The notes under the pieces were generated by a model. It saw only the letters and a program-made list of their open reading frames with translations. It ran no database searches and was not told the DNA's origin. A stretch of DNA of 54,004 nucleotides from Clostridiaceae bacterium (GTDB lineage: Bacteria > Bacillota > Clostridia > DSM-8532), in NCBI GenBank assembly GCA_012523705.1, contig JAAYTU010000040.1, positions 1 to 54,004 on the forward strand, in the 5' to 3' direction. The position numbers and the translations under genes were made by a program. Positions 16,489 through 28,334 of this stretch are shown one piece after another (within the stretch, counting starts at the first letter, position 1; every line of letters starts with the position of its first letter).

Positions 16489-16591
16489 AAAAATGATTAT
16501 ATGTTAATACATTATTCATAATTTTCTAATAAAAAATTGATATAATTAGTAGATGACACAATATTACTGGAAACGGAGGATACATAGTAGC

Positions 16592-17959
16592 ATGAAAAAG
16601 GTAATATCGATTTTTTTAGTTGCAGTGCTTATTTCTTCTTTCAGTATTTCAGCTTTTGCAGACGCTGATAATGAAGATGTATTCATACTAAGATATGAGA
16701 AAATCCAGGATAGTATATTTGAACGAAATCTTAATATTCAATCTAACATGCTGTCGCTAGATTCCCTGAATGAAACATTGAAGGATTTGAAGAATGTTAA
16801 GTCCGGTTCGGAAAGTGATCTGAAAAGGCAGATTGCATATATCGATATGGAAATTGAGTATTATCAGAATCAGCTGGCTTTACTACAGCCCATAGTAGCT
16901 CCGGACCTTCCCGGAAATAATGGCCATGATGATGAATTACCAGAGGGCGAAGGTGACGGGGGTGAAACAGGGGATGAAGGAGGCTCAGCTTCTCAGATAG
17001 ATTCTGGCTTGTATGCCGCAATTAATACAAGTATAGCCTATGTAAGAAATGCTTATATCATCGAGATTGTGAATCTGGAGCAGAGAAGAGAAGCCTTATT
17101 GGCATCAAGTGGCATGAGCAACAGTGAGCTTGAAACTCAAGAGCTCAACCTGAACAATTCCATTATTCAGTTGACACTAATTAATTATCAGATGGTAAAG
17201 GAAGCTCAGAGCCTTTTCCTGTTATATCATTCCCTAGAGTTCGACTATGAAGATTTGCTGCTGCAGCTGGAGCTTAGGAAAAAGGAATTGGAGTTCACAA
17301 AACTGAGAAGAAATCTTGGAATGGCTGAAAACAAGGATGTTGAGGCTATTGAAACTGTCATTGATGACTTGAATGCTGCTATTGATAATCTGGTTGAGCA
17401 AAAGGCGGAAATATCCGGACAAATAAATATACTACTGGGAAGAGAGCAGGATAAACGACTGATATTAGGGCCTTCACCGAAAATTGATTCTAAAAAACTG
17501 ACAGTGAATTACGATAAAGACCTTACCCAGGCAAAGGAAAACAGCTATTCTGTTAACATTGAACGTAATGATTATGAGATAAAAAACCTGGACTTTAAGG
17601 ATGCAAAGAAAAACTATAACTCAACCTCAGATGAATACAAAAACGTTGAATTAGAATTGCAGAAAGCTTTTTTATCCCTCGATAACAAGGAAAAGGAGCT
17701 TGAGAAGAGTTTCGACCGCATCTATAATGATTTGCTAGACAAAAAGGATGCCCTTGATAAGGAAGAGGAAAAGCTGTTGGAGGCCAATGAGGACTACAGG
17801 CTTGCAACGTTGAAGTATAACCTTGGTATGATTAGTATGCTTGAGCAGGAAAATGCCAGGATGCAGTATGAGAAGCAGCAGAATGAGTATAACAGAGCAA
17901 GGCACGGCCTGCAAAAGGCCTTTATGGAATATCAGTGGATTAAGAAAGGTCTTTCATAA
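16592..17959 (+). CDS. TolC-like coiled-coil exported protein
   Basis: This 455-residue protein has a signal peptide (MKKVISIFLVAVLISSF, cleavage likely after AFA). The rest is almost entirely helical coiled coil, with LRRNLGMAENKDVEAIE and LATLKYNLGMISMLEQENA, the repeated pattern of TolC-family outer-membrane efflux proteins (Y/R-x-x-G at helix ends). A low-complexity acidic/Gly insert (about residues 98-130) breaks the first half. The ATG at 16592 follows GGAGGA; an earlier in-frame start at 16553 would spoil the signal peptide. The next genes encode a MacAB-like system, so it is probably the exit or adaptor partner. How it works without an evident outer membrane is unclear. Confidence 0.75.
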   Translation: MKKVISIFLVAVLISSFSISAFADADNEDVFILRYEKIQDSIFERNLNIQSNMLSLDSLNETLKDLKNVKSGSESDLKRQIAYIDMEIEYYQNQLALLQPIVAPDLPGNNGHDDELPEGEGDGGETGDEGGSASQIDSGLYAAINTSIAYVRNAYIIEIVNLEQRREALLASSGMSNSELETQELNLNNSIIQLTLINYQMVKEAQSLFLLYHSLEFDYEDLLLQLELRKKELEFTKLRRNLGMAENKDVEAIETVIDDLNAAIDNLVEQKAEISGQINILLGREQDKRLILGPSPKIDSKKLTVNYDKDLTQAKENSYSVNIERNDYEIKNLDFKDAKKNYNSTSDEYKNVELELQKAFLSLDNKEKELEKSFDRIYNDLLDKKDALDKEEEKLLEANEDYRLATLKYNLGMISMLEQENARMQYEKQQNEYNRARHGLQKAFMEYQWIKKGLS

Positions 17960-17989: not shown

Positions 17990-18679
17990 ATGAATAAAGA
18001 AAGAATTATAGGACTGGAAAATATTCGTAAAGTTTATTCAAACGGCATTATACAGGTAGAAGCATTGAGGGACGTTAATCTTAAAATAAACAGAGGCGAG
18101 ATGATTTCTATCATGGGCCCCTCCGGCTCCGGAAAGTCTACTCTTATGAATATTTTAGGCTGTCTGGATACCCCTACAGAGGGCAGGTACTTTCTGGATG
18201 ATCTTGAGGTAACTGCAGTAAAGGATAAAAAGCTTACCGAGGTGAGAAATAGAAAAATCGGGTTTGTCTTTCAGTCTTTTAATTTATTGCCTAAGCTTAC
18301 CACCATACAAAATGTCCAACTGCCAATGGTTTATGCAGGAAAGTCATCAGGAGAGAGAAAAAAGAGGTCTCTCTGGGCTCTGGAGCGGGTAGGTCTCTCG
18401 GACAGGCTCCATCATAAGCCAACTGAACTATCAGGCGGACAGAAACAACGGGTGGCTATTGCCAGAGCATTGATAAATGAGCCAGCAATTATTTTGGCTG
18501 ATGAGCCTACCGGAAACCTGGACAGTCATTCAACCATTGATATCCTGGAGCTTTTCCAGAGCCTGAACAGAGAGGGGACTACTGTGGTGATTATAACCCA
18601 TGAGGAGGAGGTATCCCAATATACCGACCGGGTAATCCGAATTCGTGATGGAAGAATAGAAAGTGACAAAAGAAGATAG
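17990..18679 (+). CDS. ABC transporter ATPase, MacB/LolD type
   Basis: This 229-residue ATPase belongs to the MacB/LolD/FtsE-like class that powers mechanotransmission rather than classical transport. It has Walker [11 protein letters not shown]-loop [10 protein letters not shown], signature LSGGQKQR, Walker B IILADEP and the switch His in IITHEEE. It pairs with the FtsX-type permease two genes downstream. An AGGAAGG sits about 12 bases before the ATG. The gene is 30 bases after the TolC-like gene, and its 3' end is 31 bases before the start chosen for the adaptor gene. Confidence 0.93.
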
Positions 18680-18710
18680 AGTTCACAGTATCATAGGAGG
18701 TACTTACATA

Positions 18711-20354
18711 ATGAAGCGGACTAAAAAAATAATAATTATTGCAATAGCCATAGCAGTTTTATTATTAATAGGCAAAATAATAATTGATGCATCGAGAAAC
18801 CTACCCGGAGAGTTTGACTCCAGTAATCTGGCCATAGCAGAGGTTATCAGGGGCGATTTGAAAGTTACAGTATCAGGTAATGGACAGGCTGAGTTCTCAG
18901 AAAAAAAGGAGATATTCACTCATGCTTCTGGTGAGATAAGCAGGGTTAATGTTGCAGATGGCGATTATGTAATAAAAGGGGATGTGATGGCTGAGATGGA
19001 TCTATCGGATATCATTTCTGCCAAAGAAGACGAGATAAAGCAGTTAAAGAATAAAATAGATATTCAGAATCTGAATGTAAAGGAGCAGGCCAGAAACCTT
19101 GATGATATAAGAAATACAAAGGAGAGCATAACGGTCACATCTCCTTACTCCGGAATTCTATCTGAGCTTACAGTAAGAGTGGGAGACAACATGCAGACTG
19201 ACCAAAGATTCGGTGCAATTAATGACAACAGCAAGGTTAAGATTACCTTGCCCTTTGACAAGAATAAAATAACAACCCTCGAATCAGGGCATAGGGTATA
19301 TGTTTACCTGATAGATTTTTTGGACAAGGATGTTAAAACTCTTGGAGAGGTAGTTTCAATTACCAATTCCCAGGATGGCGGGCAGGTAATAGCAGATGTT
19401 GAGGTTGTTCTTGATGGGAAAGAAGGCTTTGAGGCAGGAGCAAACGCTTCCTTTTCAGTTTTAGCCCATGACACGGTAGTACCTCCCCTCCGTACAGGCA
19501 AGATTGAGTGGATCGATTCACATACACTCATCTCCTCCGAAAGAGGAAGGGTGAAAGAAGTTCTTGTGGAGCAGGGGGACGAAATATCCAAAGGAGATGC
19601 AATTTGTGTATTGGAAAATAAAAATATTGATTTAGATATTGAAAAAGCACAGTATGCTCTTGAAGGCGCCCAATTAGAGCTTGATATTTTGAATGAGCAG
19701 CTGAACAGGCTGAAGGAAGAGTTGGAAGATTTAATAGCAGATTCCTTGATTGAGGCTCCTATTAATGGTGTAGTATCCAATCTTTTCATTGAAGAAGGAG
19801 ATGATATTAAGGCAGGAACATCAATTGCCGTAGTATCTTCTGATTCAGAGCTGGTGATACCTGTTGAGATAGATGAATTAGACATAGCCGAGGTAAAGGA
19901 GGGGCTGCCTGCGGAGATTACCTTAGATGCTCTGGGACGCCAAATCTTTGAAGGAACAGTTGATAAGATTGCAATCGAAGGAATCAACAAATGGGGGGTT
20001 GGATCCTTTGAGGTGGTTATTCGATTATCTGAGTCAGATTCTAAGCGAATAAAGCCCGGAATGTCAGCAAATGTAGAGATCATTGTATCAGAAAAAGCAG
20101 ACACACTTCTTCTTCCTATTGAAGCGGTAAGAAAGATAGACGATCTGTATATGGTCAATCTTAAAAGAACTGAACTCACTGAAAGCCCTAATGCAGTTCC
20201 TAGTGCTGCTGACAATATGGTCCCAATAAAGGTTGGATTGGCCAGTGCTAGTTATGTGGAGATTTTAGAAGGTCTTTCAGAAGGTGATGAAGTCATAATA
20301 ACGGGGCAGGGGCCTAATTATGACTATATGATGCCCGGTTTTTATGTAGAGTAA
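18711..20354 (+). CDS. MacA/HlyD-like membrane-fusion adaptor with duplicated lipoyl-hairpin modules
   Basis: This 547-residue adaptor has one N-terminal membrane helix (about 7-26) and an extracytoplasmic part. Two biotinyl-lipoyl-like modules are seen. One starts near FTHASGEISRVNVADGDYV and closes with SPYSGILSELTVRVGD. The second starts near LISSERGRVKEVLVEQGDE, runs through a helical hairpin, and closes with APINGVVSNLFIEEGD. A beta-barrel and membrane-proximal domain follow (VEIDELDIAEV, KPGMSANVEI). Typical MacA has one such module and about 370 residues, so this one is unusually long. The ATG at 18711 follows a perfect AGGAGG; the earlier in-frame ATG at 18663 is inside the ATPase gene. 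Confidence 0.88.
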   Translation: MKRTKKIIIIAIAIAVLLLIGKIIIDASRNLPGEFDSSNLAIAEVIRGDLKVTVSGNGQAEFSEKKEIFTHASGEISRVNVADGDYVIKGDVMAEMDLSDIISAKEDEIKQLKNKIDIQNLNVKEQARNLDDIRNTKESITVTSPYSGILSELTVRVGDNMQTDQRFGAINDNSKVKITLPFDKNKITTLESGHRVYVYLIDFLDKDVKTLGEVVSITNSQDGGQVIADVEVVLDGKEGFEAGANASFSVLAHDTVVPPLRTGKIEWIDSHTLISSERGRVKEVLVEQGDEISKGDAICVLENKNIDLDIEKAQYALEGAQLELDILNEQLNRLKEELEDLIADSLIEAPINGVVSNLFIEEGDDIKAGTSIAVVSSDSELVIPVEIDELDIAEVKEGLPAEITLDALGRQIFEGTVDKIAIEGINKWGVGSFEVVIRLSESDSKRIKPGMSANVEIIVSEKADTLLLPIEAVRKIDDLYMVNLKRTELTESPNAVPSAADNMVPIKVGLASASYVEILEGLSEGDEVIITGQGPNYDYMMPGFYVE

Positions 20355-20390
20355 AAGCATATTAGCATTGTGCGGCGTTAACGGAGGCAG

Positions 20391-21563
20391 ATGATGAAGA
20401 TTATACAATCATTTTTTATGGCCATTTCTAGTATTCTCTCCAATAAGGTCAGATCATTTCTTACCATGCTGGGTGTCATTATTGGTGTTTCGGCAGTAAT
20501 AATGCTGGTATCCTTAGGGGAAAGTGCAGAAAAAACCATTACAGAGCAGATTGAGGGAATGGGCAGTAATCTTATAAGTGTTAATATTATCAGTATCGAT
20601 AGGCAGATCGAAGAGGATGACTTTATGGACTTAAAAAACCGGTATCCTAATATCATTGGTGGGATTAGCCCGTTTGCACACGCAGAAGCTACTATTAAAT
20701 ATAAAGACAATAATATAACAGTGTTTGTGGAAGGAGTCCTTGAAGCTTACCAGGATATAGTTAATTTGGATGTTGAATCAGGACGGTTTATTACCAATGT
20801 GGATAATGATTTCAGAAACAGGGTTGCCATAATAGGCAGTAAGGTAGCGGAGGAATTGTTTGATGATGAACCTCCTTTGGGTAAGGAAATCTATATAGAC
20901 GGTTATAAATTTAAGGTAGTGGGTATCCTTGAATCAGCTTCAGGCTCAGTGCTGTCTGACTCGAGCGAACTGATTATAATTCCGCTTCAGACTATCCAAC
21001 GTATGGCAAAGATTAGCGAGATATCTACCTATTATGTTCAGGCAGCCTCCAAGGAAACTGTAGATTCTGCAGTTGCTATTATTGAGGATTTTCTCACCCA
21101 AAAGCTCTCCGAAAGTGACAGTTTTACTGTGTTCAGTCTTACTCAGATATTGGATTCAGTAAATGTAATTACTCAGACATTTACTTTGGTGTTGGCAGGA
21201 ATAGCGGGCATTTCACTTCTTGTAGGTGGCATAGGAATAATGAATATCATGCTGGTATCTGTCAGCGAAAGGACAAGAGAGATTGGAATCAGAAAGGCTA
21301 TAGGAGCCAAAAAGCGTGATATTATGTCTCAATTTCTCATTGAATCTAGTATTGTAAGCGGATTAGGCGGAGTAATAGGAATTATTCTCGGTGTCCAGGG
21401 TGCAAAGCTAATTATTAGTCTTATGGATATACAGCCGACAATTTCCCCCAAAACGGTTATAATAGCCTTTGTGTTCTCAGTGTGTATTGGTATAGTATTT
21501 GGTATGTATCCTGCCAATAAAGCAGCCAACCTTAAACCCATAGACGCATTGTCACATGAATAA
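20391..21563 (+). CDS. MacB-type ABC permease (FtsX domain)
   Basis: This 390-residue permease has the MacB layout: one N-terminal membrane helix (about 19-42, FLTMLGVIIGVSAVIMLVSLGES), a periplasmic-core domain (about 45-245), and three C-terminal helices including LVGGIGIMNIMLVSVSERTREIGIRKAIGA, the hallmark of the FtsX fold. No ATPase domain is fused; the ATPase is encoded three genes earlier in the operon order. GGAGG precedes tandem ATG codons. It completes the four-gene unit TolC-like, ATPase, adaptor and permease. The likely cargo is a peptide, lipid or antibiotic-like compound, but nothing in the window identifies it. Confidence 0.93.
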   Translation: MMKIIQSFFMAISSILSNKVRSFLTMLGVIIGVSAVIMLVSLGESAEKTITEQIEGMGSNLISVNIISIDRQIEEDDFMDLKNRYPNIIGGISPFAHAEATIKYKDNNITVFVEGVLEAYQDIVNLDVESGRFITNVDNDFRNRVAIIGSKVAEELFDDEPPLGKEIYIDGYKFKVVGILESASGSVLSDSSELIIIPLQTIQRMAKISEISTYYVQAASKETVDSAVAIIEDFLTQKLSESDSFTVFSLTQILDSVNVITQTFTLVLAGIAGISLLVGGIGIMNIMLVSVSERTREIGIRKAIGAKKRDIMSQFLIESSIVSGLGGVIGIILGVQGAKLIISLMDIQPTISPKTVIIAFVFSVCIGIVFGMYPANKAANLKPIDALSHE

Positions 21564-21785: not shown

Positions 21786-22896
21786 ATGAGCCTGTTAGAG
21801 CTGGAACAGATTAACCTGGAGCTTGATGAGCTAAAAGAAAACATTATAGAATTGGGGGATTCACTTTGACTTGCCCGGCATGAAAAACGAGTTGGAAGAA
21901 TTAGAGCAAAGAGCGGCAGAACCCGGATTTTGGAATGATACCGAAAATTCTCAAAGGGTTTTGCAGCGGACAAAATCACTTCAAAATAAAATTGACTTCT
22001 ATAATAAATTAATCGAGGACTGTGAGGATGTGGTTGTCCTTACAGAATTAGGGCTGGAGGAAAAGGATGAATCGGTCCTTGAAGAGGTAGGTCCAGGCCT
22101 GGAAGATGTTAAAAGCAGATACGAAAAGCTTCGAATAGAAACTCTCATGAAGGGTGAATATGATATTAATGATGCTATTATCACATTACATGCAGGAGCC
22201 GGTGGAACCGAAGCAATGGATTGGGTGCAAATGCTTTTTCGTATGTATACCCGATGGGCTGAGAGGAACGGTTTTTCAGCCAGGGTTTTGGATATGCTTG
22301 AAGGCGATGAAGCCGGAATTAAAAGTGTAACCGTAGAAATAACTGGCGAATATGCCTACGGCTATTTAAGGCCTGAAAAGGGAGTTCATCGCCTGGTAAG
22401 GATATCCCCCTTTGATTCTTCGGGAAGGAGACATACCTCCTTTGCTTCAATGGAAGTAATGCCTGTGCTGGACGATTCGGTTAAGGTGGATATTAATCCT
22501 GACGATATAAAGATGGATGTCTACAGAGCATCAGGAGCGGGTGGACAGCATGTAAACAAAACTTCATCAGCAGTGAGACTTACTCATATACCTACAGGAA
22601 TTGTTGTGGCCTGTCAGAATGAAAGATCCCAGGTTCAGAACCGTGAAACAGCCATGAAGATGCTTAGGGCGAAGCTTCTTGAATTGAAAGAAAAGGAGCA
22701 GGCTGAAAAACTTAGCCAGATTCAGGGCGAACAGCTTGATATTGCTTGGGGGAGCCAGATAAGATCATATGTATTTTGCCCCTACACCATGGTAAAGGAC
22801 CATAGAACCAACTATGAGGAGGGTAATATCCAAAAGGTCATGGATGGCGGATTAGATGAGTTTATTCAAGCATACCTAGTCAATCAGAAACAATAA
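21786..22896 (+). CDS. prfB: Peptide chain release factor 2, with programmed +1 frameshift
   Basis: It terminates translation at UGA and UAA. The gene begins with a short frame (ATG at 21786, 27 codons, MSLLELEQINLELDELKENI...) ending in CTT TGA C (TGA at 21867-21869). Translation must slip +1 on CTT to continue as D-L-P-G-M in the second frame, from 21868 to 22896. The autoregulatory frameshift is stimulated by the Shine-Dalgarno-like GGGGG (21854-21858), five bases before CTT. The protein has the RF2 anticodon tripeptide SPF (ISPFDSSGRR) and the catalytic GGQ (SGAGGQHVNK). The full product is about 369 residues, normal for RF2. It is an intact gene, not a pseudogene. Confidence 0.97.
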
Positions 22897-22916
22897 TCAT
22901 ATATAGTCAAAAAACA

Positions 22917-22951
22917 AATGCCAATACTATAGAATGAGTAGTATTGGCATT
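22917..22951. terminator. Bidirectional terminator between prfB and the DacA-like gene
   Basis: A perfect 13-bp inverted repeat, AATGCCAATACTA and its complement, has a 9-base loop. T-rich flanks lie on both sides (TTTATT on plus, TTTGTTTTTTG on minus), between two convergent genes. Confidence 0.85.
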
Positions 22952-22968
22952 TTATTAATCTTTCAATT

Positions 22969-24279
22969 CTATTTTTTATACCGATATCTTGGTTTGGTAT
23001 AGGCTCTTTTGCTGTTTTTCTTGATTGCCCACTTTTTGATGTATCGGTAAAGCTTAGCGCCTGCAAGAATAATTTCTAAAACAATAAGACCTATTATTAG
23101 TATAACCAGCTCTTTGTTAGCCATGAGTCTTTCCATCAGAATCTGTTTCCTGGTTTTTTGTGGCAGGATTTCCCGGTCAGGATACAAATCCACGTTTATT
23201 ATGGTATCATCCTCAAGAACAAATGCTAATGTTCCCACTATGGTACTTGTTGTAATAGGAGGCTTTAGCTTTGATTGATCAATACTAATAGTAACATCCC
23301 TAATGTAATCCTGACCCTTTGGAAAAACATAATTTACATCAGACTGAACCACCAGGTTCAGAGGTTGTCCCTCAACTGTAAGTGACTGTTGGCTTGTACC
23401 GGCCGCAACAAGGCTTCCAATCATAAAATTGTCAAAGCCATAGTTAAGAATATTAATAGAGTCATTATACATGCTTTTTGTCGGTACATCTATCAATATA
23501 CATACCAGACGCATACTGTTCTTTGTAACAGTAGTTATAATACTTTGAAACTCTGCATCATAGCCTGCAGTAATACCCCCATCTGTACCTGGATAGCTCC
23601 AAAACATATTATTAGTATTTGTCAAAAGCAGAGTTTTTGTAGTGTAATACCATGGCTTTGCTTTAGTTGCGAATAGCCTGTTAAAGCTATTGTTTTTAAG
23701 GGCGTACTGCACAAGGATTACCATATCATCTACAGTAGTGTACTGATCTTCATCAAATGAACCAATGGAATCGGTGAAATGCGTGTTTTGCATTCCCAGG
23801 TTCATGGCAAATTCGTTCATTAAATTAACAAAGCCTTCTTCGCTGCCGCCAATATGCTCTGCAAGAACCAGTGTGGCATCGGGAGACCCGGTGAGTAATG
23901 ATGCATCAAGAAGATTCTTGACAGCATATTTTTCGCCTACAGACAGCTTAAGGGTTGCGCCCTCAACATTGGCAGCATCTTTACTTGTGATAATTAATGC
24001 TTCAGTATCTGCTTTTTCTAGAACAATAAGAGCAGTTACCAAACGATTGACTAAGGGCGAATGGATATGTTCATCAGAAGCTTTTGAATATAAAACCTGA
24101 CCTCTGCGGGCATCAAAGAGTATGGCTGAAGGGGCATCAGTCTGAAGAGTATCAATATCCTCTATTGCAAAGGATGCCACATCCAGCGCAATCAGAAGCC
24201 CGGTTGTTAATATTGTAGCTAGTAATAGCATTACAATATAACGCCGACATTTATTAGAAGAAAACAGGCTTGTGATCAT
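22969..24279 (-). CDS. D-alanyl-D-alanine carboxypeptidase homologue lacking all catalytic motifs
   Basis: This 436-residue protein has an N-terminal membrane helix or signal anchor (about 14-33), a penicillin-binding DacA/DacF-type domain (about 50-290), and a C-terminal helix (about 392-412) with a basic tail, so it sits at the membrane outside the cell. Against the family pattern the fold-defining segments align without gaps (SAILFDARRGQVLY, VTALIVLE, GSEEGFVNLMN). The active-site motifs are replaced: SxxK becomes L76-V-N-R79, SxN becomes G131-S-P133, and KTG becomes T237-A-G. It therefore should not cleave peptides or bind penicillin covalently. A structural or regulatory wall role is inferred. 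A terminator is shared with prfB. Confidence 0.82.
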   Translation of the reverse strand: MITSLFSSNKCRRYIVMLLLATILTTGLLIALDVASFAIEDIDTLQTDAPSAILFDARRGQVLYSKASDEHIHSPLVNRLVTALIVLEKADTEALIITSKDAANVEGATLKLSVGEKYAVKNLLDASLLTGSPDATLVLAEHIGGSEEGFVNLMNEFAMNLGMQNTHFTDSIGSFDEDQYTTVDDMVILVQYALKNNSFNRLFATKAKPWYYTTKTLLLTNTNNMFWSYPGTDGGITAGYDAEFQSIITTVTKNSMRLVCILIDVPTKSMYNDSINILNYGFDNFMIGSLVAAGTSQQSLTVEGQPLNLVVQSDVNYVFPKGQDYIRDVTISIDQSKLKPPITTSTIVGTLAFVLEDDTIINVDLYPDREILPQKTRKQILMERLMANKELVILIIGLIVLEIILAGAKLYRYIKKWAIKKNSKRAYTKPRYRYKK

Positions 24280-24337: not shown

Positions 24338-24368
24338 AATATACTCCACCTAAAAGGTGGAGTATATT
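24338..24368 (-). repeat. Perfect 14-bp inverted repeat near the 5' end of the DacA-like transcript
   Basis: AATATACTCCACCT (24338-24351), AAA, then the exact complement (24355-24368). It starts about 9 bases after the predicted -10 on the minus strand and is not followed by a T run. Its role may be mRNA stability or an operator. Confidence 0.7.
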
Positions 24369-24489: not shown

Positions 24490-27051
24490 TTAAGTATTAG
24501 CCCACTTAACCAATGGTAAATCAAATTTATTCATTAAGTTAGGATGTTTAGGGAATACCCTGAATGAATAACCGTATTCACCACCATCGAGAATTGAAAT
24601 AGTAGCTTCATAATAATAGGTTGAAGCATCTGTCTGGCGGACTACATTCATTTCAACAGCCTTAGCATTAATTATGGTGTCATTGTACAGAGGACCATAA
24701 TATGCCTCAACACAGACATCCTCAGTGCTTAATGAACCTAAATGAACAGTAACACTTAACTTAAGCTCCTGGCCCGAGAATAAATCATGATCAACCAACC
24801 CGTGGATATCCTGGTTTGCTGCTATTCCGACCTGGGGCCATGCCCGTTGTACCTTCTGCTTCCAGTCAGAAAGCTTATGAATAAATTCAAACTGGCTGTC
24901 TCTGATTTTTACATTCCTCATTACAGCAGGGATATACATTTGCTCGGTATAATCCTTTATCATACGATGGGTGCTATACTCAGGAGCCAAGGATTTAATT
25001 GATTCCTTCATTCTTGCAATCCATCCCTTAGGAATTCCGTTTTCCCTGTCAAAGAACAAGGGGATAATCTCACGCTCAAGAGTCTCATATAGTGACTTGC
25101 TATCTGCATCGTCCTGCTGCTGCTCGTTTTCGAAGTGGGTATCATCGCCTATAACCCATCCGTTTGAACCATTATAACCCTCGCACCACCATCCGTCCAT
25201 AATACTGAAGTTGATTACTCCATTAATGCAAGCCTTTTGACCACTTGTTCCGCTGGCCTCTAACGGGCGGCGGGGATTGTTCATCCAAATATCAACACCC
25301 TGTACAAGATGTCTTGCAACGGTCATATTATAGTTTTCCACCAGGAATATTTTTCCTTTAAATCCTTCCTTTTTAGCGATGTCGTGGATGCTCTTAATAA
25401 CCTGATGGGCAGGGTGATCGGCAGGGTGAGCCTTTCCGGCAAATATTACCTGAACGGGCATGTTTTTATTATTAAGGATTTTCTCAATTCTGGCCAAATC
25501 TCTGAAAACCAGATTTGCACGCTTATATGTGGCAAATCGTCTCGCGAAGCCTATTGTAAAGGCATTAGGATCAAGAAGACCATCCAGCTCATTTACTTCA
25601 TGAAGAGGAACACCGTTTTGCAAATACTGCTTCTTAAGCCTTTCGGTAATAAAGCGGATCATCTTGGTTTTCAGGGCATTATGAGTCTTCCAGATTTCCT
25701 CATCAGGGATATTGTAAACCCCTTCCCATACTTCAGGATCATGGATCCGATCCTGCCATCCCTCAACAAAGTACTTATCAAACAAGTATTTAAATCCGGG
25801 AGCTAACCATGTCATGGTATGTATACCATTTGTGACATAGGATATAGGAACCTCATCCTCAGGGATATTAAGCCAGACTGATTTAAACATATTTCTGGAA
25901 ACAGCACCGTGAAGCTTGCTCACACCATTTTTGTGTCCCGACATGTTTATAGCAAGAACAGCCATATTAAATACATTTGGCTCTCCCGGCTTAAGGCCCA
26001 GGCTGATAAATTCATTGCGCTGCAGCCCTAATTGTCCCCAATAATTACTAAAATAGCGGTCTATCATATCTAAGGGGAATACATCATTTCCGGCAGGCAC
26101 AGGAGTATGGGTAGTAAATACTGAGGAAGAATAAACAATCTCTCTTGCCTCACTAAAGGGCATATTCTTTTCCATAACTAACTTACGAGCTAGCTCCAGA
26201 GCCATAAAGGCAGAATGGCCTTCATTCATGTGATAAACTGTTCCTTTGATTCCAAGAGCATCCAGAGTTCTGATTCCGCCTATGCCAAGAAGAATTTCCT
26301 GTTGGATGCGGGTTTCCCTGTCACCACCATAAAGTCTTTCTGTAAGAGCACGGTCAGGCTGATTATTTTCAGGGATGTCAGTATCCATCAGATAGAGCTT
26401 TGTTCTGCCAATATTGATACACCAAATATGAGCATAAACTATGCGTCCTGAGAGTTCAACATATATGGTGAGCCGATTTCCGTTTAAGTCGTATACTGGC
26501 TCAACAGGAAGCTGAGAGTAGTTTACAGTGGTAAAATGAGTTTCCTGCCAGCCGTCGGCATTAATTCGCTGATCAAAATATCCTTGCTTATAAAAAAGCC
26601 CTATAGCTATAAAAGGAAGCCCCAAATCACTTGCTGTTTTACAGTGATCTCCTGAAAGGACTCCCAACCCTCCTGAATAAACGGGAAGAACCTCATGCAA
26701 CCCATATTCAGCCGAGAAATAGATTATTTTTTCATCCTTATGATCAGGATAATTTTTGCTAAACCAGGTTTCCTTGCTATCCATATAAGAGTTGAAATCC
26801 TTCAGAACCTTGTCGTATCTGGTGAGGAACTCGGCATCAGTCAGCTTTTCCTCCAGCTTCTTTACACTGACTTCCTGTAGGAAACGAACAGGGTTCCTGT
26901 TTAATTTCTCGTAAAGAGCTAAGTCAATCTCTCTGAAGAGATCGGTTGCTTCATTGTTCCAGGACCACCACAGATTCCTTGAGATATCCCTAAGTCCGGA
27001 TAATCTGTCAGGTAAAGTAGTTGTTACTTTTATCTTCCCTAATTTATACAT
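24490..27051 (-). CDS. glgP: Alpha-glucan (glycogen) phosphorylase, GT35
   Basis: It releases glucose 1-phosphate from glycogen using pyridoxal phosphate, in the cytoplasm. The 853-residue protein is of the short alpha-glucan phosphorylase type with the extra N-terminal domain (about 1-110, LSGLRDISRNLWWSWNNEA). The catalytic domain contains FSAEYGLHEVLPVYSGGLGVLSGDH, the HTPVPAGND segment and the phosphate/cofactor region GTSGQKACING, whose Lys should hold the cofactor. GGAGG lies 6 bases before the ATG. It is transcribed away from trx and ahead of the DacA-like gene, which has its own promoter. With glgA it implies a glycogen storage cycle. Confidence 0.95.
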   Translation of the reverse strand: MYKLGKIKVTTTLPDRLSGLRDISRNLWWSWNNEATDLFREIDLALYEKLNRNPVRFLQEVSVKKLEEKLTDAEFLTRYDKVLKDFNSYMDSKETWFSKNYPDHKDEKIIYFSAEYGLHEVLPVYSGGLGVLSGDHCKTASDLGLPFIAIGLFYKQGYFDQRINADGWQETHFTTVNYSQLPVEPVYDLNGNRLTIYVELSGRIVYAHIWCINIGRTKLYLMDTDIPENNQPDRALTERLYGGDRETRIQQEILLGIGGIRTLDALGIKGTVYHMNEGHSAFMALELARKLVMEKNMPFSEAREIVYSSSVFTTHTPVPAGNDVFPLDMIDRYFSNYWGQLGLQRNEFISLGLKPGEPNVFNMAVLAINMSGHKNGVSKLHGAVSRNMFKSVWLNIPEDEVPISYVTNGIHTMTWLAPGFKYLFDKYFVEGWQDRIHDPEVWEGVYNIPDEEIWKTHNALKTKMIRFITERLKKQYLQNGVPLHEVNELDGLLDPNAFTIGFARRFATYKRANLVFRDLARIEKILNNKNMPVQVIFAGKAHPADHPAHQVIKSIHDIAKKEGFKGKIFLVENYNMTVARHLVQGVDIWMNNPRRPLEASGTSGQKACINGVINFSIMDGWWCEGYNGSNGWVIGDDTHFENEQQQDDADSKSLYETLEREIIPLFFDRENGIPKGWIARMKESIKSLAPEYSTHRMIKDYTEQMYIPAVMRNVKIRDSQFEFIHKLSDWKQKVQRAWPQVGIAANQDIHGLVDHDLFSGQELKLSVTVHLGSLSTEDVCVEAYYGPLYNDTIINAKAVEMNVVRQTDASTYYYEATISILDGGEYGYSFRVFPKHPNLMNKFDLPLVKWANT

Positions 27052-27833: not shown

Positions 27834-28334
27834 ATGTCAGGTGAGAAAAAGTTTGGTACATCGGCCTTTGGATTTAGCAAGTCAGATGTAAATGCTTATA
27901 TTGAAAGGTTATTATCTGAGTTTGATGTGCGCTTAAAAGAAAAGGATGACGAGATATCCAATCTTAAGCTACAAATTCGCGAGATGAAATTGCGTTATGA
28001 ATCTGATGCCCACGATGTTGAATCAGTAGCTAAGGAAAAGGAACGGATTGCCAGTGTACTTATCACCGCGCAGGAAACAGCCAACTCTATTATAGAAGAG
28101 GCAAGGGGACGAGCGGATGAGGAACGGATTCAGCTAGGTCACACCTTGGAAAGAGAGCGGGAAAAAATAATTGATATTAAGCGTGACATTAAAAGCATAA
28201 AGACACAAATAACTGAAATGCTCGAAAAATATCAAGGCTCTTTGAATGAATCAGAAGAATTCATAGAGACTATGGAAGAAGAGTATAATGTTGTAGAGAT
28301 TGATAGTGAAGAGAGTTATAGTGGTGTTGATTAA
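27834..28334 (+). CDS. DivIVA-like coiled-coil protein
   Basis: This 166-residue protein starts with the DivIVA-type membrane-curvature segment FGTSAFGFSKSDVNAYIERLL, followed by a long coiled coil (about 30-150) and an acidic tail (EEEYNVVEIDSEES). DivIVA-like proteins gather at division sites and poles and recruit partners. The short length and lack of the usual second conserved part make it a divergent member, so its partner is unknown. AGGAGTG lies upstream of the ATG. A terminator follows at 28387. Confidence 0.75.
   Translation: MSGEKKFGTSAFGFSKSDVNAYIERLLSEFDVRLKEKDDEISNLKLQIREMKLRYESDAHDVESVAKEKERIASVLITAQETANSIIEEARGRADEERIQLGHTLEREREKIIDIKRDIKSIKTQITEMLEKYQGSLNESEEFIETMEEEYNVVEIDSEESYSGVD

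Follow-up and report, generated by a model that had tools for sequence, protein, structure and literature searches.

The window, by which we mean the whole stretch of 54,004 nucleotides that was analysed, contains a gene whose product resembles a DD-carboxypeptidase and in which every catalytic motif is replaced. Low-molecular-weight PBPs are generally regarded as enzymes, and mild phenotypes are common when they are lost. The locus raises the question whether such a protein is encoded by a decaying gene, is an enzyme with another chemistry, or is retained for a different task. The gene and the parts of its product are:

22969 to 24279, minus strand: coding sequence of the pseudo-DD-carboxypeptidase, 436 amino acids, from the reading of the open reading frame and Pfam
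23482 to 24144, minus strand: Peptidase_S11 domain (PF00768), residues 46-266, a Pfam match with which the fold agrees
23167 to 23361, minus strand: PBP5_C domain (PF07943), residues 307-371, a Pfam match
24163 to 24279, minus strand: probable cleaved signal peptide, residues 1-39, ending in ASFA, read from the sequence
23044 to 23115, minus strand: C-terminal membrane helix, residues 389-412, within a model helix of residues 389-425 and with a hydrophobic stretch at 391-408

The reading frame starts with ATG and comprises 436 codons with no internal stop. The Peptidase_S11 match (E 1.3e-35, 123.4 bits) lies far above the curated cut-off of 27.6 bits, and PBP5_C is matched with an E value of 3.5e-06 and 27.5 bits against a cut-off of 21.2. 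An AlphaFold model of the protein (pLDDT 85.6, pTM 0.70) superposes on PBP5 of P. aeruginosa (4k91) with a Z score of 34.7 and an rmsd of 3.3 over 332 aligned residues and on DacB of B. subtilis (3mfd) with a Z score of 33.4; for PBP5 and PBP6 chains the Z scores range from 31 to 35. The well-kept scaffold described in an earlier note on this DNA is thus borne out by a predicted PBP5 fold. By fold and ancestry the gene product belongs to the PBP5-type proteins of peptidase family S11, and it shares with the class C low-molecular-weight PBPs of this family (DacA/PBP5, DacB, DacF) the S11 plus PBP5_C architecture, the predicted fold, the export and the C-terminal anchor.

Two membrane anchors had been proposed before, of which the C-terminal one stands and is the only sure anchor. 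At the N-terminus residues 10-33 are helical in the model and are followed by ASFA and then IED, in a region (residues 1-39) of low pLDDT (34-43). Because of this SFA end and of AxA-like ends at the same place in most orthologues, the N-terminal helix is probably a cleaved signal peptide rather than an anchor.

The positions at which the catalytic motifs are expected carry other residues:

24043 to 24054, minus strand: L76-V-N-R79 at the SxxK position, from the orthologue alignment
23881 to 23889, minus strand: G131-S-P133 at the SxN position, from the orthologue alignment
23566 to 23574, minus strand: I236-T237-A238 at the KTG position, from the orthologue alignment, with the register shifted by one residue

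Where an active DD-carboxypeptidase has SxxK, SxN and KTG, the window protein has LVNR, GSP and ITA. The first two replacements had already been read by eye at residues 76-79 and 131-133, and the alignment of orthologues confirmed them. For the third motif T237-A-G239 had been suggested; the loss of the lysine holds, but this register is off by one residue, as the ungapped comparison with orthologues (DGGKTGY versus DGGITAGY) places the site at I236-T237-A238. No alternative alignment rescues the active site, because S..K strings occur in the whole protein only at residue 7 (signal peptide) and residue 336 (C-domain) and no [KRH][TS]G string was found in it. An alignment restoring SxxK or KTG, which would have spoken against the earlier reading, was therefore rejected.

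Single-copy orthologues are present in 12 of the 14 genus genomes and in 28 of the 32 family genomes (23 of the 24 of good quality); in another clostridial order 43 of 58 genomes encode one copy each. Their scores are cleanly separated from those of other S11 proteins (455 versus 278 bits), and in a tree of 76 proteins 72 fall into one clade with a support of 100/100. The orthologue loci named here come from metagenome-assembled Clostridiaceae and from one Ruminiclostridium sp. A sample of 398 genomes across the phylum gave no strong match except the window's own genome. The gene is a conserved orthologous lineage and not an accident.

All close orthologues share these replacements, and intact motifs were found in none of those from the genus or the family. 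As L76 and G131 are each present in 17 of 17 orthologues of the two nearest genera, and R79 in 16 of 17, the replacement is, judged from this alignment, far from chance. Almost every orthologue has an uninterrupted frame, and dN/dS amounts to 0.03-0.17 in nearby orthologue pairs within the clade, which is well below 1. The window sequence has no very close relative for such a comparison; its one computable value, 0.12 against the orthologue L005, was obtained at a dS of 1.8, near saturation. A pseudogene in early decay, or an error of assembly or sequencing, would fit the motif loss taken alone. Identical replacements in independent genomes, the low dN/dS values and the open frames refute it, and we regard this explanation as practically eliminated.

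The view of the earlier note, i.e. selection for a non-catalytic role and not decay, is in agreement with the recurring replacements, the dN/dS values and the predicted intact fold. We therefore prefer, with a probability of roughly 70%, to read the protein as a pseudo-DD-carboxypeptidase, an exported and membrane-held protein of the S11/PBP5 type which lacks acyl-enzyme chemistry and is retained for a non-catalytic function. Catalytic residues are lost in a conserved orthologous lineage, as expected for a pseudoenzyme, and the narrower statement that the window protein itself is non-catalytic and under selection is very probably correct. The source genome also encodes three S11 paralogues with intact motifs; the cell has therefore not abandoned DD-carboxypeptidases.

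The loss of the active site is graded across the families. Thirteen of the 72 orthologues retain Ser at position 76, and the remaining 59 have Ala (19), Leu (17), Ile (12), Val (6), Thr (3) or Cys (2). All three motifs are kept in six orthologues, every one of them in family f54, so that the triad is retained only in another order. The families f64, f87 and f92 have AxxK, SAN and mostly KTG; f26 has I/VxxK, QGN or PGN, and KxG. Within the window's family the genera g2, g4 and g6 show AxxK, NAN and KVD (one member departs). In g7 the first motif is LxxR, with LxxK in one sequence, and the second is GAN. The window's genus combines LxxR with GSP (GSK in one case) and with residues like ITA, and positions 236-238 differ there between species (I/A/V/L, T/A and A/T).

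It is likely that the ancestor was catalytically active, as suggested by the triad-bearing relatives in another order and by the active paralogues as outgroup. That the nucleophile was lost at least twice appears secure from the tree, because the Cys-bearing pair L075 and L085 sits within a clade whose other members have Ser, and the remaining sequences require one further loss. If loss is assumed to be irreversible, three to five losses of Ser are the most frequent result among the bootstrap trees. The AU test did not reject a single loss for all sequences with neither Ser nor Cys (p 0.449).

In L075 and L085, both from f54, the Cys at the nucleophile position is encoded by TGT, and the Lys, S-x-N and KTG are intact. 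Together with the Thr in three other orthologues these residues could indicate a hydrolase with relocated or altered chemistry, in which another nucleophile works in the same fold. However, position 76 is Leu in the window's clade, and no new invariant set of nucleophile and base is present near the old site. For the window protein this explanation is very improbable, while orthologues with Ser, Cys or Thr could still react and the clade may not be uniformly dead. The Ser four residues before the old nucleophile (HISxANK) was also considered as a substitute; it is present in many outer members but absent from f1 and from part of the triad-bearing members, and was rejected.

A protein without cleavage activity may still hold a ligand in the old pocket, either as a muropeptide sensor or as a non-covalent decoy or sensor of beta-lactams. 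A true PBP acts as a beta-lactam sensor in Bacillus thuringiensis (PMC8092216), and the combination of AxxK, SAN and mostly KTG in f64, f87 and f92 is the classic shape of a site which is competent for binding and does not cleave. In f64 the active-site positions are conserved, changing less than half as fast as the remaining S11 domain (a ratio of 0.41). In the window's genus, however, all three motifs are replaced, residues 236-238 are variable, and the active site evolves nearly as quickly as the remaining S11 positions (a ratio of 0.88). In a set of ten genomes this ratio is 0.86, against 0.00 and 0.06 for two active paralogues in the same genomes. Since the former substrate pocket drifts there, binding of a D-Ala-D-Ala stem through it is unlikely in the window's genus. 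A ligand in the old pocket is the best surviving alternative, plausible for f64, f87 and f92 and poor for the window's genus; as an explanation of this locus it has a small chance of being right.

In the genus of the window PBP5_C is slightly better conserved than the S11 domain (identities of 0.736 and 0.713), the opposite of what is seen in the two active paralogues (0.596 versus 0.797 and 0.679 versus 0.824). The corresponding conservation ratios are 1.06 and 2.69 in the two nearest genera, 0.90-0.92 in f64 and f26, about 0.72 in f54, 0.70 in f93 and 0.60 in g2, g4 and g6. A general shift of constraint to PBP5_C across the inactive groups was thus rejected; it is clear only in the two nearest genera.

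The positions which are invariant in all 72 orthologues are located outside the former active site. One of them lies in the membrane helix:

23074 to 23076, minus strand: Glu402, at the centre of the membrane helix and unchanged in 72 of 72 orthologues, from the orthologue alignment

Glu402 and Leu398 are found in every orthologue, active and inactive alike. Of the four active paralogues that were compared, three have no counterpart of Glu402 and the fourth has Leu at this position. The helix alone does not explain the loss of catalysis, because the triad-bearing members carry Glu402 as well. Residue 179 (codon 23743-23745) is Gln in 72 of 72 orthologues and His in the four active S11 paralogues that were compared; as far as the alignment tells, Q179 is a clade signature which precedes the loss of catalysis. 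In comparison to the class C PBPs the window protein is thus distinguished by three replaced motifs, a drifting active site, a true membrane helix with an invariant Glu402, and Q179.

Returning to the reading as a pseudo-DD-carboxypeptidase, we infer that the protein would act as a scaffold or regulator inside a membrane protein complex for envelope assembly, and would bind through its post-catalytic and PBP5_C part and the Glu402 helix, not through the old pocket. For a membrane scaffold or regulator rather than a ligand sensor we see an even chance, and that the contact is made by the Glu402 helix is suggested more tentatively. A wall-binding scaffold, named as an example in the earlier note, is a guess. 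The history may have started with an active enzyme which already possessed the Glu402 helix, as the triad-bearing f54 members do. Loss of the nucleophile in an otherwise kept pocket, as in f64, f87 and f92, would have followed, with a stem peptide still holdable. Then the pocket would have eroded from NAN and KVD over GAN to GSP and ITA in the window's genus.

The protein could also be a sporulation-specific envelope protein of cortex or engulfment, comparable to a degenerate SpoIIQ. SpoIVA is encoded in the source genome and in most family carriers, and neighbours of the orthologue include germination genes of the GerA type in f26 and, in g2, a spore permease. However, in most other families the neighbours are non-sporulation genes. 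The expected co-occurrence with SpoIVA was not observed either: two g3 genomes, whose completeness is no more than 75-83%, carry the gene without SpoIVA, and the opposite pattern, SpoIVA with no orthologue, occurs in G017 and in the 99% complete genome G016. For this reason a role in sporulation only is unlikely.

SpoIIQ is nevertheless instructive. Whether the motifs of this M23/LytM protein are intact depends on the lineage (they are in C. difficile, they are not in B. subtilis), and the protein forms a membrane complex with SpoIIIAH (PMC4982068). It resembles the window protein as an envelope peptidase homologue which has lineage-dependent motifs and, as proposed for the window protein, works in a membrane complex, but it has the M23 metallopeptidase fold and is sporulation-specific, while the window gene dissociates from SpoIVA. 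Csd2 of Helicobacter pylori is likewise a peptidase homologue with incomplete catalytic ligands and pairs with its active homologue Csd1 (PMC5053510); in contrast to the window protein it has a LytM fold and a known partner. PBP2b of B. subtilis and SpoVD of C. difficile are PBPs with roles independent of their own catalytic activity (PMC12713402), yet they are high-molecular-weight class B transpeptidases with naturally intact motifs, the dead forms of which were engineered. By analogy, SpoIIQ, Csd2 and the activity-dispensable PBPs serve as precedents for the reading as a non-catalytic scaffold.

Our literature search, which lay mostly outside the subscription journals, revealed no paper on a naturally inactive S11 family. 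A survey from 2008 describes inactive serine-protease homologues in general and covers S12, not S11 (PMC2605481). We regard the clade as a pseudoenzyme lineage within the class C PBPs. One may go further and suppose, still tentatively, an undescribed S11 family in which the Glu402 helix and the C-domain are essential for the envelope, and DD-carboxypeptidase activity is an ancestral accessory function, given up independently by several clostridial families, leaving a series from active over binding-only to eroded pockets. As the enzyme part is discarded and the rest is strongly selected, an S11-type protein can have a second, structural function, and the clade offers a natural, graded series for identifying it. 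Annotation pipelines presumably label all proteins of the clade as D-alanyl-D-alanine carboxypeptidase, which would be wrong for most of them.

The genomic surroundings show recurring neighbours, namely the phosphorylase gene glgP in several families and dapB in others; a constant operon partner was sought across the families and not found. In the window the alpha-glucan phosphorylase gene (24490-27051) lies upstream on the same strand, and prfB (21871-22896) is convergent to the pseudo-DD-carboxypeptidase gene. A hairpin separates the latter two:

22916 to 22952, no strand assigned: terminator-like hairpin of 15 pairs between prfB and the pseudo-DD-carboxypeptidase gene, from a scan with one found against 0.9 expected, which is weak alone

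A perfect hairpin of 12 pairs (24340-24366, tatactccacct-aaa-aggtggagtata) is located between the phosphorylase and the pseudo-DD-carboxypeptidase genes and is absent from the list of the terminator scan. Near the orthologue in f54, f90 and other families a Beta-lactamase2 protein (PF13354) with intact motifs is encoded; membrane-anchored examples with an intact STxK are found at L116:3339-4490(-), L117:4286-5410(-), L120:8860-10140(+) and L126:7664-8719(-). At 27834-28334 on the plus strand, after a thioredoxin-like gene, the window encodes a DivIVA-like coiled-coil protein just under the Pfam cut-off, and the two genes are repeatedly found close to the orthologue within the genus, as well as in L124. 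According to the sequence, an ABC ATPase, a membrane-fusion-like protein and a MacB-type permease are encoded in a row at 17990-21563 on the plus strand, and this row is preceded, in a Clostridia genome, by a gene for a TolC-like coiled-coil protein (16553-17959).
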